64,000 nt of DNA from Thermoflexus hugenholtzii JAD2 (GTDB lineage: Bacteria; Chloroflexota; Chloroflexia; Chloroflexales; Roseiflexaceae), in assembly GCA_945881915.1 (NCBI GenBank), contig CAMCVW010000008.1, forward strand, positions 1-64,000, in the 5' to 3' direction. The notes beneath the pieces were generated by a model. It was not told the DNA's origin. It did not search any database and was given only the letters and a program-made list of their open reading frames with translations. Below are positions 50,221-57,543 of this stretch, piece after piece (the stretch's first letter is position 1; every line of letters starts with the position of its first letter). Position numbers and translations under genes: made by a program.

Positions 50221-50844
50221 ATGGATGCGATCGAACTGACACAGATTAGTATAGATTATGGTGCACGAAGCGTCATGGCGAACCTCACGGTGCGACTCAA
50301 TCGTGGGAACGTGATGGTCGTCACCGGTCAGAACGGCAGCGGCAAGAGTTCGCTGCTGCGCGTGGTGTGTGGATTGCAACGCCCTTCTGCTGGTCAAGTG
50401 CGATTTATTGCGGGTGACCAAGCGGTCGCTCCTGCCGAAGCGCGTCAGCAGATTGGTTGGATGGCTCCCGATTTGATGCTGTACCGTGAACTGACGGGGC
50501 TCGAAAATTTGCGTTTCTTTGCAGACGTACGTGGATTAGGCATTCCCGATGCGGAGCTCAATGCACTATTGGAGCGGGTTGGTCTCTACGGGCGCGGGGC
50601 AGACGTGGTTGCGACGTACTCATCGGGGATGACGCATCGACTGCGGTACGCTTATGCATTGCTGCACCGACCTACGGTCTTGCTCCTCGATGAGCCGAGT
50701 GTGATGCTCGACCAGCGAGGTCATGAGCTACTCGAGGCAGTGGTAGCGCAGCAACGCATGATTGGGCTGACAATTATTGCAACCAATGACCCACGTGAAC
50801 AGCGTTTTGCAGATGTATTGATTCGTCTTGAAGGTTCAGCATGA
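50221..50844 (+). CDS. ccmA: Haem exporter ATP-binding protein CcmA
   Basis: ATPase of the CcmAB(C) complex, which drives release of holo-CcmE from CcmC during c-type cytochrome maturation. The 207-residue protein has Walker A TGQNGSGKSS, a Q-loop region, Walker B VLLLDEPS and a degenerate signature YSSGM in place of LSGGQ, as is common in CcmA. The ATG at 50221 has GAGGGT upstream; an ATG at 50212 abuts that site. Overlaps ccmB by 4 nt. Confidence 0.88.
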   Translation: MDAIELTQISIDYGARSVMANLTVRLNRGNVMVVTGQNGSGKSSLLRVVCGLQRPSAGQVRFIAGDQAVAPAEARQQIGWMAPDLMLYRELTGLENLRFFADVRGLGIPDAELNALLERVGLYGRGADVVATYSSGMTHRLRYAYALLHRPTVLLLDEPSVMLDQRGHELLEAVVAQQRMIGLTIIATNDPREQRFADVLIRLEGSA

Positions 50845-51527
50845 GTAAATCGTTGCTGTGGCGCGCCACCAAAGCAGTTTTTGTGCGTGAATTGCGCAGT
50901 GAATTCCGTAGCCGGCAAGCGCTCAATGCGGTGGCGTTGTTTGCGGTGTGTAGTATCGTCGCGGTGAGTCTGGGACTCGGCCCACTGAATCGTTCTGCAG
51001 AATTGCCTCTCGTTCATGCTGCATTACTCTGGATTGTCTTGCTTTTTGCCGCATTCACCGCATTGGCGCGTGTCTTTGTCGTCGAAGAAGAACAACGCAC
51101 TGCAGCGGCATTGCGCCTCGCAGCCCCACCACACGCCGTCTATTTGGGGAAGTTACTGTTTAACCTCCTACTGCTTTGTGCACTGACAGTATTGGTCGCG
51201 GTCCTCGCAATTGTCCTGTTGCGCATGCAGGTCAGATCGCCTGGTCCGTTTGTGGTACTGTTGGTGACGGGCGCACTTGGGCTCGTCGCAGGTACCACAC
51301 TCATTGCTGCGATGATTGCACGGGCCGCGTCGCGCGGTGCGTTGTTTGCCGTTTTGTCGTTCCCCATATTGATTCCAATGTTAGTCACTGCGGTACGTGG
51401 GACTGCGTTGGCCCTTTCGGGTACGGGCTGGGACCGTTGCATGGCTCCCATTCAGACGCTCATCGCCTATGCGGTCGCAATGTTTGTGACGTCGCTGTTT
51501 CTCTTTGCGTACGTATGGGAAGACTAG
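50841..51527 (+). CDS. ccmB: Haem exporter membrane subunit CcmB
   Basis: Integral membrane partner of CcmA. The 228-residue protein has six predicted helices. The N-terminal cytosolic stretch AVFVRELRSEFRSRQALNAV and the loop FVVEEEQRTAAALRLAAP after helix 2 are conserved features of CcmB. It overlaps ccmA (ATGA). A 148-bp gap without a gene follows before ccmC, holding a TATGAT at about 51637 that may serve as a second promoter. Confidence 0.9.
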   Translation: MSKSLLWRATKAVFVRELRSEFRSRQALNAVALFAVCSIVAVSLGLGPLNRSAELPLVHAALLWIVLLFAAFTALARVFVVEEEQRTAAALRLAAPPHAVYLGKLLFNLLLLCALTVLVAVLAIVLLRMQVRSPGPFVVLLVTGALGLVAGTTLIAAMIARAASRGALFAVLSFPILIPMLVTAVRGTALALSGTGWDRCMAPIQTLIAYAVAMFVTSLFLFAYVWED

Positions 51528-51675: not shown

Positions 51676-52638
51676 ATGGGTGAACGACTTGCAATGACTG
51701 CCAAGATTTCACTTGGGCTCGCAATGTCAGGGATTATCTACGCCATGTTCTTGGTCGTCCCGCAGTATGTAGGCCTCGGTGAAGCAGGGCGCATCATCAT
51801 CGTCCATGTACCGACTGCGTGGGTCACTTCGGCAGCATTTGCCGTATCGGCAGTATTCAGTATTCTCTATCTGCGTTCACGATCAGGGTTGCACGACGCA
51901 TCAGCAGTTGCAGCAGCCGAAGTCGGAACGCTGTTTTGTTTGTTTGCCACCGTTACAGGTGCGATTTTTGCACAAGTCGTGTGGGGAACGTTTTGGAACT
52001 GGGACCCGCGTGAGACCTCGATTCTGGTCCTTTTGCTTATCTACGCAGCCTACTTCGCGCTGCGGTCGTCGGTCGATGATGTGCCTCGGAAGAGGCGACT
52101 GGCGGCGGTGTATAACATTTTTGCATGCGTCACCATGCCGTTTCTGATGTTTGTCGCACCACGGATTGCAGATAGCACGCTCCATCCAAATTGTGCATTC
52201 TTGCAAGGAAGCAAATGTGAAGGAATCAGCCTCGACCTCAACGGCGCCAAAATCGGTCAACTCGGTGATGTCGTTGTTGAACTCAAAGCAGTACAAAAAC
52301 AAGGTGATATGACGAGTGCCACGGTCGAGGTTCGTATGCCCGGGCTCACAGACACTGCCGATCTCATCCCTACATTCGATAATGCAGGGCAACCTGCAGA
52401 TCGGCCAGAATTCCCTGGTCAATCCTTCCGGATGATTCTCATCGAGGCAGACGTACCGGCTGGCACCGCACGAGTCAATATACAAGCACCAGGGACGGGT
52501 TTGTTGAGTAATCAGCGTACGCTTTGGGTCTTTATGGCCAGTAATCTGACCTTTGGATTTTTGGCACTCTGGCTCTATCGGATTCGCGCCACGATTTTGC
52601 ACGTAACGTCACTCGTACAGACAACGGAGGCACTCTAG
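51676..52638 (+). CDS. ccmC: Cytochrome c biogenesis haem-handling protein CcmC, with inserted external domain
   Basis: Presents haem to CcmE. The 320-residue protein has the six-helix CcmC core: His44 in IIVHVPTAWV and His170 in STLHP are the axial ligand positions, and the WWD motif VVWGTFWNWDPRET (101-114) lies between helices 3 and 4. About 100 residues (172-281) are inserted between His170 and the last helix, giving a soluble beta-rich domain with two cysteines (NCAF, KCEG) on the outer face. E. coli CcmC has no such domain. Followed directly by ccmD. Confidence 0.92.
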   Translation: MGERLAMTAKISLGLAMSGIIYAMFLVVPQYVGLGEAGRIIIVHVPTAWVTSAAFAVSAVFSILYLRSRSGLHDASAVAAAEVGTLFCLFATVTGAIFAQVVWGTFWNWDPRETSILVLLLIYAAYFALRSSVDDVPRKRRLAAVYNIFACVTMPFLMFVAPRIADSTLHPNCAFLQGSKCEGISLDLNGAKIGQLGDVVVELKAVQKQGDMTSATVEVRMPGLTDTADLIPTFDNAGQPADRPEFPGQSFRMILIEADVPAGTARVNIQAPGTGLLSNQRTLWVFMASNLTFGFLALWLYRIRATILHVTSLVQTTEAL

Positions 52639-52851: not shown

Positions 52852-53283
52852 ATGTCCTCAACGACCCTCCAACCTGCCTCACGCGGTGGTCTCAAGCCAC
52901 TCCACATCATCGGTATTGCAATTGTTGTGCTCTCGATTGTGCTCGGTTATTATGGTCTGAGCGCCTCAATGCGCCCGTACACCACACAAATCAGCGAAGC
53001 GACCAATAGCGCGCAAGGCGTACAGTTAGCAGGATTCTTGGGCAGCACCGGAGAATACAACGAAGCGGGGAAGTTCACGTTCTTGCTCCAGGATTCCACC
53101 GGCAAAAAAATCAAAATCATTTCGAGTGAGCCGAAACCGTCCAACTTCGAACAGGCAGTCAGCATCGTGGCAATTGGGCATTATGATGCAAAAAGTGGTG
53201 ACTTCATCGCTGAGAGTCTGCTTGTCAAATGCCCGTCGAAATACCAAGAACAGATGAAGTCAGAGACCAAAGTCCAGAACTAG
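52852..53283 (+). CDS. ccmE: Haem chaperone CcmE, cysteine (CxxxY) type
   Basis: Membrane-anchored OB-fold protein that carries haem from CcmC to CcmF. The 143-residue protein has one N-terminal helix (about 17-38), the beta barrel with VQLAGFLGS and FLLQDSTGKKIKI, and ends AESLLVKCPSKYQEQ. The haem-binding residue is Cys127 followed by Tyr131 (CxxxY) where E. coli has HxxxY. Such cysteine-type CcmE proteins are known in some deltaproteobacteria, archaea and others and bind haem covalently through cysteine. Confidence 0.92.
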   Translation: MSSTTLQPASRGGLKPLHIIGIAIVVLSIVLGYYGLSASMRPYTTQISEATNSAQGVQLAGFLGSTGEYNEAGKFTFLLQDSTGKKIKIISSEPKPSNFEQAVSIVAIGHYDAKSGDFIAESLLVKCPSKYQEQMKSETKVQN

Positions 53284-53298
53284 AATAGCGAGCCACCT

Positions 53299-55668
53299 AT
53301 GACGGTCTATTTCTTTGGTACATTGTTAATCGTTGCAACCATCGCGATGGCAGCAATGGCGACCATCAGTTATGTGCTCGTACCATTTGGTCGACCAAAC
53401 GCACTCCCATATGCTCGTTGGGGTACGCGACTGACATTGGTGGGTGTACTTGCCGTCGTAGTACTGCTGAATTATCTGTTTGTTGCGCAACGGTATGACG
53501 TCGAATACGTCTACAACTACAGTTCAAATGAACTCGAATCGTATTTCAGAGTGGCGGCCGTCTGGGCAGGCCAACCTGGGTCATTTGTTATTTGGGCATT
53601 GTGGGGCATCATCGGAGCGCAATTCCTGGTACGACGAACACGCCACAACGAACCATACGTCTTGAGCGTGGTGATGATGATCCAAACTGCGCTGCTCATT
53701 TTCATGCTCATCCGTAATCCCTTTATCTTGCACATCACTGCCGATGGCCTGCCGCCGGTCGATGGCAAAGGCCTCAATCCAACGCTGCACAACATATGGA
53801 TGCTCATCCATCCACCGATTCTGTTTGTCGGCTTTGCGCTGATGGCGATTCCATACGGATACGTCATTGCGGGACTTTGGCGTCGTGATTACGACGGCTG
53901 GGTAAAGTATGCGTTGCCATGGGCTACCGCTTCTTGGGCGACACTCGGTTTGGCGTTGTTGTTGGGTGGGTATTGGGCCTACGAGACGCTCGGCTGGGGT
54001 GGCTTCTGGGGCTGGGACCCGGTCGAAAACTCTGCATTGGTGCCATGGTTGACCGTGGCAGCACTCATCCACGGTATGTTGGTGCAACGGGCAAACGGTT
54101 CTCTGCGACGTATGAATGCATTGATGGCAGTGGCGACCTATTCGCTGGTCTTCTATTCGACATTTTTGACGCGAAGCGGTGTATTGTCATCTTTTTCGGT
54201 CCATTCGTTCGTCGAAGAAGGCCTCAAGTGGATCATGATTACCTTTCTGTTGATTATCATTGTGCTTGGCATGTCTGTGGTGTTGTGGCGCTGGCGCGAC
54301 ATCCCGCAACTCCCACTCTCCGAAAAGCTCTTATCACGCGACAGCTTTTTTAGTCTGATGATTCTGGTGATGTTGTTGATGGCAGGCATTGTGGCGTTGG
54401 GTACATCCATGCCGGTTATTTCGTCTATTCCAGGTGTCGGGACGTCACTGCAAAGCTTCTTTGGATCGTTGTTTACCTTGGATGACGGAACCACGTACAG
54501 CCCTGGAGCGCAGCCATTCGAAGACGGTCGATTTGGGCTGATTGGAAGCTTCTATAGCACCACCGTGCCGCCGCTTGGTCTCATTTTGGCAATTCTGATG
54601 GTGATTGGGCCTCTGCTTGGGCAACGGGACAGTAACGCTGGTGCATTACTACGCACCATCCGGATTCCTGGAATCATTGCATTTGTGGTAACTGCAATTG
54701 CAGTGGTGCTTGGTGCGCGGAGCGTTTTCGTGGCGCTATACATTGGTATCGCGACGTTTGCCGTCGGGACGAACATTGTCATGATTGTGCGTACCCTCAA
54801 AGCGGGTTGGCTGCGCATCGGCGGGTATCTGGCGCATGTGGGAATAATGATTTTCGTGGTGGGAGCCATTGCGTCTTCGTGGTATGCCAGCCCCGAAACC
54901 CGTGTGTTGATCCCTGAGGGTCAGACCATGTCGGTATACGGATACGATATTGCGTTCAACGGCTGGCGCATGGATGCCACTGGTCACGGGGTGCTCGACA
55001 TGGATGTGACGCACGGTGGTCGTGTGACTCCTGCTGCGCCGATGCTCTACTTCAACGCACGCATGGGTGCGACGATGGCCACTCCGTCGGTTCGCAGTGA
55101 AGTGTACGAAGACATGTACATCTCGCCAGTCGAATATCAACCACCATTCGATCGCAACATCGCAGATTTGAACGAAGGCCAGACCAAGGAAATTGGACCG
55201 TACGAGATTACCTTTAATGGATTTATGGTGCCAACCGATAAGACGACCGACAAGGCCGATATCTCTGCCCAATTGCGGATTGTCTACGAAGGAAAATCCT
55301 ACGATATCACCCCAGGTATCGTGATATTGGCCAACGAGACTGACCCCAATAAAGCAGTACAAGAAATGCCTGTCGATTTGCCAGGTGGTCATACCGCTTC
55401 AATGGCTGCATTTGATCCCAATCAAAAACGGGTCATCATCCGTGTCGGCGGATTGCAGCTACCAGTAGATCCTGCCCGTGCAGTGATTACCGTATCTGTC
55501 AAGCCTGGCATTGTGTTTGTCTGGTCAGGCATCATCATCGCGGTTATTGGTGGGGTCATCGCGGTCATTCGGCGACAATATGAGGCAGGGCAACTCAGTG
55601 TTCCGTCGCTGAAAGGTGCTTTATCTTGGCTGGCATTCTGGCGACGAAAAGATCCAGTGACCGCATAG
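53299..55668 (+). CDS. ccmF: Cytochrome c haem lyase subunit CcmF
   Basis: Attaches haem from CcmE to apocytochrome CxxCH motifs. The 789-residue protein has about 15 helices. The WWD motif WGGFWGWDPVENSAL (233-247) is flanked by histidines (LHNIWMLIHPP at 163-172, and AALIHGML), and a third and fourth ligand pair lie later. A large external domain of about 230 residues sits before the final helix, as in other CcmF proteins. No separate ccmH gene follows, so the apocytochrome thioreduction role probably falls to the CcmG-like protein two genes later. Confidence 0.95.
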   Translation: MTVYFFGTLLIVATIAMAAMATISYVLVPFGRPNALPYARWGTRLTLVGVLAVVVLLNYLFVAQRYDVEYVYNYSSNELESYFRVAAVWAGQPGSFVIWALWGIIGAQFLVRRTRHNEPYVLSVVMMIQTALLIFMLIRNPFILHITADGLPPVDGKGLNPTLHNIWMLIHPPILFVGFALMAIPYGYVIAGLWRRDYDGWVKYALPWATASWATLGLALLLGGYWAYETLGWGGFWGWDPVENSALVPWLTVAALIHGMLVQRANGSLRRMNALMAVATYSLVFYSTFLTRSGVLSSFSVHSFVEEGLKWIMITFLLIIIVLGMSVVLWRWRDIPQLPLSEKLLSRDSFFSLMILVMLLMAGIVALGTSMPVISSIPGVGTSLQSFFGSLFTLDDGTTYSPGAQPFEDGRFGLIGSFYSTTVPPLGLILAILMVIGPLLGQRDSNAGALLRTIRIPGIIAFVVTAIAVVLGARSVFVALYIGIATFAVGTNIVMIVRTLKAGWLRIGGYLAHVGIMIFVVGAIASSWYASPETRVLIPEGQTMSVYGYDIAFNGWRMDATGHGVLDMDVTHGGRVTPAAPMLYFNARMGATMATPSVRSEVYEDMYISPVEYQPPFDRNIADLNEGQTKEIGPYEITFNGFMVPTDKTTDKADISAQLRIVYEGKSYDITPGIVILANETDPNKAVQEMPVDLPGGHTASMAAFDPNQKRVIIRVGGLQLPVDPARAVITVSVKPGIVFVWSGIIIAVIGGVIAVIRRQYEAGQLSVPSLKGALSWLAFWRRKDPVTA

Positions 55669-55698: not shown

Positions 55699-56694
55699 AT
55701 GGTCGATTATTATGCAGTCCTACAGCTCCGACATGATGCAGATAGCGCTGCAATAGAGGAATCATATACACGTTTGAGCAATGCATACAACCCAGCGTTG
55801 TTGAGCGGTGTATCGGATGAACTACGTGCACTCGCAGAACAACGCCTCTTTGAACTCGGCCAAGCACGGGCGATTCTGGCAGATCCAACCCTGCGGGCAG
55901 CGTATGACGCAGGCCTCGAGCACGTTGTGACAAAGGCATTACCAACGGCAGAACCGAGTTTTGATTATGCGCCGCTACCAGCGGCAAGTGCCCGCGAACG
56001 TATTCCGGGATTTGTGACTGAGCCGGTGCGTGACGCACGTATGGCGGATTCACGTTCCCGCAATCTCCCGATGATTGTTGCAATCGTGCTTCCTATACTT
56101 ATCGTGTTGATTGCCTTTGTGCTGACCGATGGTGGTACCAAAGTCGCGCCCTCAAACGATACTCCACCCGTAGAGACTGCAGGGAGCCAAATCGATCAGT
56201 TTGAGGCCGCCATTGCGACAGCAAAACTTGCAACCGATTCCGATCCGAGCAGTGTTTCGGCATGGATTGAGTATGGCAATATGCTCTACAACAGTGTGCA
56301 AATTGTCCGTGAATTGCAGCCGAATAGCGCTGTGTATAACGAACGCCTCAATCGTTGGCAGATGTCTGCATTCGCATACGAAAAAGCCATGACGCTCGAG
56401 CCAGGGAATGTGGTCGTGGCGGCAGATCATGGAGCTGCACTGTGCTTCTATGGGAACGGGGTCGGTGACAAGAAGAGTTCCAACGCCGGATTGCAGCAGA
56501 TTCGTTCCGTACGTGATTCGATACCGACAACTGACCGGTCACGGGTGCTCATGAATCTGGCATATTGCCTTGCCGAAAACACTCCACCCCAGGTCGAGGA
56601 TGCAACTAAAGTCTGGCAGTCAGTCATCGATGCAGAGCCCAAAGATTCCCCCATTGCCATTCAGGCTGCGCAATTGATAGCCAGATATCGCTGA
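55699..56694 (+). CDS. J-like domain, membrane helix and TPR protein (CcmI-like)
   Basis: A 331-residue protein. Residues 1-70 read as a J-like helical domain (DYYAVLQLRHDADSAAIEESY, then LGQARAILADPTLRAAYD), but the HPD tripeptide is replaced by NPA (31-33), so it should not stimulate Hsp70. One membrane helix lies at about 118-140 and is followed by an external TPR-type region (AWIEYGNMLYN, AFAYEKAMTLEPGN, AALCFYGNG). The outside TPR part and the position after ccmF recall CcmI, which chaperones apocytochrome c. The combination with a cytosolic J-like domain is unusual. Next gene starts 24 nt later with the same J-like-plus-helix start. Confidence 0.75.
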   Translation: MVDYYAVLQLRHDADSAAIEESYTRLSNAYNPALLSGVSDELRALAEQRLFELGQARAILADPTLRAAYDAGLEHVVTKALPTAEPSFDYAPLPAASARERIPGFVTEPVRDARMADSRSRNLPMIVAIVLPILIVLIAFVLTDGGTKVAPSNDTPPVETAGSQIDQFEAAIATAKLATDSDPSSVSAWIEYGNMLYNSVQIVRELQPNSAVYNERLNRWQMSAFAYEKAMTLEPGNVVVAADHGAALCFYGNGVGDKKSSNAGLQQIRSVRDSIPTTDRSRVLMNLAYCLAENTPPQVEDATKVWQSVIDAEPKDSPIAIQAAQLIARYR

Positions 56695-56718
56695 TCGTAG
56701 TAGTCGACACGAGGATAC

Positions 56719-57543
56719 ATGGCACAAAATTATTATGAGCAGCTCGGCATTCCGATGGATGCCGACGATACCGCGATTCGTGCAGGATGTGAACGCATCA
56801 GTGCACGCTTCCGCGCGGATTGGCTGAATGATCCGGGTGGCACCGTCGGCGACAGTGCAATGAAGCGGATTCGCGAATTTGAAGCGCTGCGTGATCTGCT
56901 CCTTGACTCTGTCCAACGTACGGAATACGACCGTTTGTTGGGCGTCCGACTGCTCCCGGTGACGGCCAGCGGGCGTACGAGTGCAGTGAGCCGAGAAGTG
57001 TGGATGATCGTGTTGGGTGGCTTCATTGGGTTGGTGATTGTGTGTATCGTGTGGATTGTTAGTGCACGCTTAGCAATGCCAACGATGCCTGCCGCTGCCG
57101 AGACAAACCGACCAGCACCAAATTTCGCGTTACAAACAATCGACGGAAAAACACTGCGTTTAAATGATTTACGTGGTAAAATTGTACTAGTAAACTTTTG
57201 GGGCACATGGTGTGTCCCTTGCAAAGCAGAAACCCCGGCGTTAGAGGCTGCATATACGCAGCTCAAAGACAGCGGTGTTGAGTTTGTCGGGGTCAATCTT
57301 CGCAACCAAGAGGAACTCGGCGCTGCGGGTGATGCAGCGGTGAAGGCATTCGTGGCGACGTATGGCGTGACGTACCCAATCGTCTACGACACAGACGGCG
57401 AAGTTGCCCGGGCATACCAGATATCACCCATACCAGTGAGTTATTTCATTGATGCGCAAGGCAACATACGGTACGTGTACGTTGGAGAACTCAAGACTTC
57501 TGATGTCTTGGAGTTAGCACGACGGTTGCACGATACCCCATAA
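56719..57543 (+). CDS. J-like domain fused to membrane-anchored thioredoxin (CcmG/ResA-like)
   Basis: A 274-residue protein. Residues 1-75 form a J-like domain (NYYEQLGIPMDADDTAIRAG, then FEALRDLLLDSVQRTEYDR) with RAD (32-34) at the HPD position. A membrane helix follows (about 94-116), then an external TlpA/ResA-type thioredoxin from about 130 with FWGTWCVPCKAE, active cysteines 165 and 168, and the cis-proline PIPVSYFID. The thioredoxin should keep apocytochrome CxxCH cysteines reduced. DNA at 57115-57215, the start of the thioredoxin part, is clearly more AT-rich than its surroundings. Confidence 0.85.
   Translation: MAQNYYEQLGIPMDADDTAIRAGCERISARFRADWLNDPGGTVGDSAMKRIREFEALRDLLLDSVQRTEYDRLLGVRLLPVTASGRTSAVSREVWMIVLGGFIGLVIVCIVWIVSARLAMPTMPAAAETNRPAPNFALQTIDGKTLRLNDLRGKIVLVNFWGTWCVPCKAETPALEAAYTQLKDSGVEFVGVNLRNQEELGAAGDAAVKAFVATYGVTYPIVYDTDGEVARAYQISPIPVSYFIDAQGNIRYVYVGELKTSDVLELARRLHDTP

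Follow-up and report, generated by a model that had tools for sequence, protein, structure and literature searches.

HPD-less J-like domains on the CcmI-like and CcmG-like proteins of a System I*-type cytochrome maturation operon in Chloroflexales

Introduction

The cytochrome maturation (ccm) operon of Chloroflexales encodes, directly downstream of ccmF, two membrane proteins whose N-termini have the J fold but, unlike Hsp40/DnaJ co-chaperones, lack both the HPD motif and a basic helix II. One of them (J-TPR) continues into a CcmI-like TPR domain and the other (J-Trx) into a CcmG-like thioredoxin. A System I* machine with HPD-less J-like domains on these two subunits is undescribed in the literature searched, where a query on J domains in the Ccm system of Chloroflexus gave nothing relevant. 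The reading favored here, at roughly even confidence, is that the J-like domains are Hsp70-independent docking modules that gather J-TPR and J-Trx at CcmF.

System I*, with its cysteine-type CcmE and often without CcmH, is known from Desulfovibrio, archaea, and some Chloroflexi; the cysteine-type CcmE of some Chloroflexi is recorded in the System I* review of Stevens et al. 2011 (PMC3601427). According to that review, bioinformatic analysis had revealed nothing in System I* that would compensate (PMC3601427). The present arrangement bears on the presentation and reduction of apocytochromes in System I* machines that have no CcmH, as a conserved, selected, and lineage-wide feature sits on exactly those two subunits. 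Chloroflexus and Roseiflexus are, moreover, culturable.

Results

The ccm operon

The window, meaning the whole stretch of 64,000 nucleotides that was analyzed, carries the operon on its forward strand. The gene for the haem exporter ATPase, ccmA (50221..50844), is assigned from its conserved operon position and a TIGR01189 score of 125 bits, just below the cut-off of 131.6. It is followed by ccmB (50841..51527; Pfam CcmB, 73.6 bits) and ccmC (51676..52638; TIGR01191, 110 bits; Cytochrom_C_asm, 95 bits). The next gene, ccmE (52852..53283; Pfam CcmE, 42.4 bits), encodes a System I*-type haem chaperone of the cysteine type. Its motif, checked in the window and in relatives, is KCPSKYQ, with cysteine in place of the haem-binding histidine. 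The haem lyase/synthetase core is encoded by ccmF (53299..55668; Cytochrom_C_asm, 83 bits; CcmF_C, 49.7 bits). The J-TPR gene (55699..56694, 331 amino acids) begins 30 bases further on, and 24 bases separate it from the J-Trx gene (56719..57543, 274 amino acids). CcmH (PF03918) was detected in 0 of 60 genomes, while the control genomes were positive. An Rfam search of the ccm operon returned no element, and a CcdA/DsbD_TM-type gene lies elsewhere in the source genome.

Architecture of the two proteins

The original prediction described two consecutive genes after ccmF that share the order J-like domain, one membrane helix, and external domain, the latter being a TPR region in one protein and a thioredoxin with WCVPC in the other. 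Coordinates and build are both confirmed. In J-TPR, the J-like domain spans residues 2–71 (55702..55911). Residues 3–70 match Pfam DnaJ with 35.1 bits against a cut-off of 27.8, and the full-length model places helices at 4–7, 16–29, 40–61, and 63–70 in a J topology with a pLDDT of about 90. The model then passes through a disordered linker and a transmembrane helix into a confident TPR array. The single helix, at residues of about 121–143 (56059..56127), is supported by the model (123–143) and by hydrophobic sequence, and is not a CcmI-type pair. The external TPR domain, residues of about 158–331 (56170..56691), matches TPR_CcmH_CycH weakly (19.7 bits, E=8e-4, against a cut-off of 42) and is assigned TPR folds by Foldseek.

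The linker of J-TPR contains a motif at residues 89–105 (55963..56013), predicted to be cytosolic, that reads DYAPLPAASARERIPGF here and has the order consensus DYRPLPPAxxxERPxxF. Its D, P, L, A, E, and R are invariant among 41 sequences, and a loose form of the motif occurs in 69 of 70 TPR proteins. Herpetosiphon-type TPR proteins without a J domain still have the motif, near the protein start. As a DNA pattern, it is found in 46 of 60 genomes, mostly as a single match inside the TPR gene, along with scattered other matches. Because the motif is poorly ordered in the model, it reads as a putative short linear motif for binding that does not depend on the J domain. The linker motif, the CPSKY-type CcmE, and the undetected CcmH go beyond the original prediction.

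The J-like domain of J-Trx, residues 3–73 (56725..56937), is the weaker match of the two and scores only 12.7 bits against Pfam DnaJ, below the cut-off. A phmmer search of solved structures nevertheless aligns residues 3–72 to the E. coli J domain (E=2.7e-4). An AlphaFold2 model of residues 1–81 has helices at 5–8, 17–37, 42–62, and 64–78 with a mean pLDDT of 91.8, and the top Foldseek matches in the PDB are J domains with a probability of 1.00 and a best E-value of 7.6e-3; that the E-values never pass 1e-3 is expected for so short a chain. The expectation of J-like N-termini is thereby upheld by structure prediction. A hydrophobic stretch at residues of about 95–116 (57001..57066) forms the single transmembrane helix of J-Trx, and the external thioredoxin domain with WCVPC (57097..57540) scores 111 bits for AhpC-TSA and 137 bits for the NCBIfam ResA model, which is below the ResA cut-off of 170. 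An ActJ assignment was rejected, since its NCBIfam score of 42 bits is well under the cut-off of 150 and shows only remote similarity to a short J protein.

An excess of lysine and arginine lies on the N-terminal side of the transmembrane helix in 63 of 74 J-TPR homologues and in 63 of 70 J-Trx homologues. The J domains are therefore predicted to be inside, with the TPR and thioredoxin domains outside.

Loss of the HPD motif

At the HPD position, J-TPR has NPA (residues 31–33) and J-Trx has RAD (residues 32–34), the exact triads named in the original prediction. Across the order, HPD is absent from the motif position in all 110 ccm J domains collected (62 from TPR proteins and 48 from thioredoxins), and the histidine of HPD is never found there either; the commonest triads are DPA, APE, NPE, and RAD. 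An apparent HPD in the thioredoxin J domain of genome G032 (SHPDKRR) sits in helix IV, outside the motif position. The mean net charge of helix II is about +0.5 to +0.6 in the ccm J domains versus +4 in E. coli DnaJ. All 49 J domains gathered outside the ccm operon, from other phyla and other families, have HPD. A canonical DnaK cycle is thus unlikely, as had been supposed.

In a tree of J domains, the ccm J-like domains are parted from the canonical ones by a branch with 100/98 support. The TPR and thioredoxin J domains are largely, not cleanly, apart in the same tree, where 81 columns put the order of events beyond resolution. The pattern fits a single HPD-less ancestor that may have been duplicated.

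Distribution, gains, and losses

The TPR profile matches 75 of 82 Chloroflexales genomes searched, and the gene order ccmA-B-C-E-F-(J)TPR-(J)Trx is kept in all four sampled families of the order. Named carriers are Chloroflexus islandicus (L103), Candidatus Oscillochloris fontis (L092), Candidatus Chloroploca asiatica (L101), and a Roseiflexus sp. (L079). The J-TPR and J-Trx genes are on different contigs in two genomes, G352 and G353. Recurrence through the order means that the arrangement is not due to chance, and it agrees with the suggestion of a lineage-specific cytochrome maturation module. Among the best-scoring places listed from 301 and 400 genomes of the phylum, no full-length J-TPR or J-Trx occurs outside the order; the matches listed there span the J domain only or the external domain only. 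The ccm clusters of other orders in the class have no J domain, and several have a TlpA-like gene nearby. Two entries titled Singulisphaera sp. (L072) and Candidatus Gracilibacteria (L108) hold clear Chloroflexales J-TPR genes, and their titles are probably wrong or their bins mixed.

The J domains that score highly in other parts of the phylum belong to other proteins that join a J domain to membrane helices, mostly J-TM-zincin fusions, and are not members since they keep HPD. The J-TM-metallopeptidase fusion family of other Chloroflexota is an observation in its own right. Its proteins combine membrane helices with a WHPD-containing J domain and a C-terminal region that is zincin-like (HELAHHFGIDHDEMPxW), and are encoded at L180:7610-8689, L181:1307-2395, L182:2774-3850, L183:1476-2888, L184:5602-6708, L185:6250-7356, and L186:6044-7087. 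A further protein from a member of the class (L187:6603-7625) has a canonical-HPD J domain, a transmembrane helix, and an external domain of unassigned type.

Gains and losses were mapped onto a tree built from the external domains of 67 genomes with both genes. The J domain of the TPR protein undergoes a single change of state, being lost in Herpetosiphon-type genomes. That of the thioredoxin undergoes seven changes over three states (intact, decayed, and none): it is gone from Roseiflexus, genus g10 of family f2, genera g20 and g202 of family f4, and Herpetosiphon-type genomes, and is shrunken in f2 genus g14 and two other f3 genomes. Where the genes are readable, both J domains are present in 42 cases, a J-TPR accompanies a J-less thioredoxin in 8 and a decayed thioredoxin J domain in 5, and neither protein has a J domain in 6. 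A J-thioredoxin alongside a J-less TPR protein was found in 0 cases where both genes are readable. The J-TPR domain therefore does not need the J-Trx domain. The J-Trx domain possibly depends on the J-TPR domain, a pattern that comes from few independent events. Several apparent exceptions were set aside: J-less TPR genes in G332, G335, G339, G341, G342, and G046 are at contig ends or frame breaks, the J-less thioredoxin of G055 is a probable frame break, and in G014, G015, and G340, which have ccmF and no J-TPR, a contig edge is at or near the 3′ side of ccmF.

Selection on the J-like domains

The ratio pN/pS, pooled over 17 pairs of related genomes, is 0.134 for the J domain of the TPR protein versus 0.117 for its TPR domain, and 0.163 for the J domain of the thioredoxin versus 0.117 for its thioredoxin domain. 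Linkers and transmembrane helices have values of 0.30–0.33. The low ratios indicate that selection maintains the J-like domains, with the constraint on that of J-TPR close to the constraint on the external domain. Across 18 genera, the divergence values of the J domains of J-TPR and J-Trx correlate with a raw rho of 0.76, which falls to a partial rho of 0.36 (p 0.14) when corrected for the external domains; this is not significant and is not counted as support for coupling.

A second ccmF with a second J-thioredoxin

Four genomes from several genera in three families of the order (G017, G022, G035, and G349) contain a second, divergent ccmF and, immediately downstream, another HPD-less J-TM-thioredoxin, with WCPPC (L258:1096-4377, L268:4898-8283, L269:5174-8307, and L270:952-4109). 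No TPR gene was recognized in the flanking sequence examined in the four genomes. The second J-thioredoxin also occurs in G016, and G349 has another copy. The presence of a J-thioredoxin beside ccmF at two separate loci links this build to CcmF. A second ccmF without an adjoining J-thioredoxin was seen in G026 and G038 (L256:8186-10600 and L257:6896-9277).

Discussion

A docking role for the J-like domains is suggested by HPD-less J-like domains elsewhere that bind proteins, such as plastid CJD1, which binds ARC6 by yeast two-hybrid (PMC3196505), and by CcmI of Rhodobacter capsulatus, whose cytoplasmic segment is a leucine zipper and which acts together with CcmF and CcmH in one complex (PMC3884852). 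Outside the membrane, the TPR domain would play the part of CcmI and bind the apocytochrome, and the thioredoxin that of CcmG, reducing the CXXCH of the apocytochrome. Inside, the J-TPR domain together with the linker motif would be the conserved main anchor, and the J-Trx domain an accessory and more dispensable dock on the same site, which may be CcmF or the J-TPR domain. The cytosolic pairing would in this way do part of the job of the CcmH/CcmI assembly elsewhere. If this reading is true, the two proteins would show, in bacteria, J-like domains that serve without Hsp70 as assembly modules of a membrane complex. The cytosolic location, the binding partner, and the role in assembly are all inferred. 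Weighing against docking is the fact that the J domains are dispensable, given that Herpetosiphon-type genomes lack both and that the thioredoxin has lost its own or let it decay several times.

A more far-reaching proposal, offered as a tentative one, is that CcmH has been replaced in Chloroflexales, with the J-like domains and DYRPLPPA clamping the TPR protein and the reductant to the inner face of CcmF, and with the second ccmF and its J-thioredoxin as a cytochrome-specific copy. On this view, a J fold would have become an assembly clamp for the haem-attachment machine, placed on the opposite side of the membrane from the chemistry that it organizes. Since about one-third of bacteria with a cysteine-type CcmE have CcmH (PMC3601427), the loss of CcmH and the J domains need not be connected.

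The nearest rival, which is rather unlikely, holds that the main function of the domains is a specific heterodimer of J-TPR and J-Trx, like that of Tim14/Pam18 with Tim16/Pam16. The genes are neighbors, their HPD-less J domains look paralogous, the J-Trx domain never occurs apart from J-TPR where both genes are readable, and there is a known precedent for pairing of J and J-like domains in the binding of Tim14 by Tim16 (PMC3196505). These points are met by well-conserved J-TPR domains beside J-less thioredoxins in Roseiflexus and other lineages, by a second J-Trx that adjoins a second ccmF whose examined flanks hold no recognized TPR gene, and by the lack of a significant correlation between the domain divergences after correction. 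The original suggestion that the two domains bind each other therefore survives in part: the other J domain stays a possible partner, while mutual binding fails as the whole story. It is less probable still that the J-like domain is a cytosolic holdase or tether that, close to CcmF, captures apocytochrome precursors or the Sec machinery ahead of translocation. Its predicted cytosolic site beside the haem lyase would suit such a role, and the plastid HPD-less J-like membrane protein CPP1 is described as chaperone-like for one enzyme (PMC10423991). However, no client-binding surface was identified, no finding of this analysis connects the domain with Sec, and precursors arrive unfolded through Sec and are recognized outside by the TPR domain.

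Recruitment of DnaK to the membrane by a non-canonical motif would be in keeping with the J fold and with the proline of HPD, which is often kept (DPA, APE, NPE). The histidine that never appears and the missing basic patch of helix II make this very unlikely, as does the behavior of HPD-less CJD1, which showed no Hsp70 binding and could not stand in for DnaJ in E. coli (PMC3196505). Least credible of all is that the domains are functionless relics persisting in fusion genes. Loss or decay in several lineages is what relics would lead one to expect, but both domains are under strong purifying selection and that of J-TPR is kept in all lineages of the order but one.

Comparison with known systems

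The operon resembles System I* in having ccmABC, ccmE, and ccmF together, a CcmE of the CPSKY type, and no detected CcmH. It differs in its dedicated TPR and thioredoxin genes, both with predicted cytosolic J-like domains. J-TPR is like CcmI of R. capsulatus (PMC3884852) in its membrane-anchored external TPR domain, and CcmI is found in the haem-ligation complex with CcmF. CcmI, however, has two transmembrane helices with a short cytoplasmic region between them, whereas J-TPR has one helix preceded by a full J-like domain and the linker motif. J-Trx shares with CcmG, ResA, and TlpA the single transmembrane helix, the external thioredoxin fold, WCxPC, and a place in the ccm operon, and adds an N-terminal J-like domain of about 75 residues that is absent from the class outgroups examined.

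Tim16/Pam16, CJD1, ARC6, and CPP1 likewise combine a J fold, no HPD, and a membrane setting (PMC3196505, PMC10423991). They serve organelle and plant import, division, and pigment synthesis, and none is described in these sources as fused to a TPR or thioredoxin domain of the Ccm pathway. ERdj5 (3apq), a Foldseek match, also joins a J domain to thioredoxin modules. ERdj5 is an Hsp70 partner of the ER lumen with its J and thioredoxin modules in one compartment, whereas J-Trx is without HPD and is predicted to have its J-like domain on one side of the membrane and its thioredoxin domain on the other.
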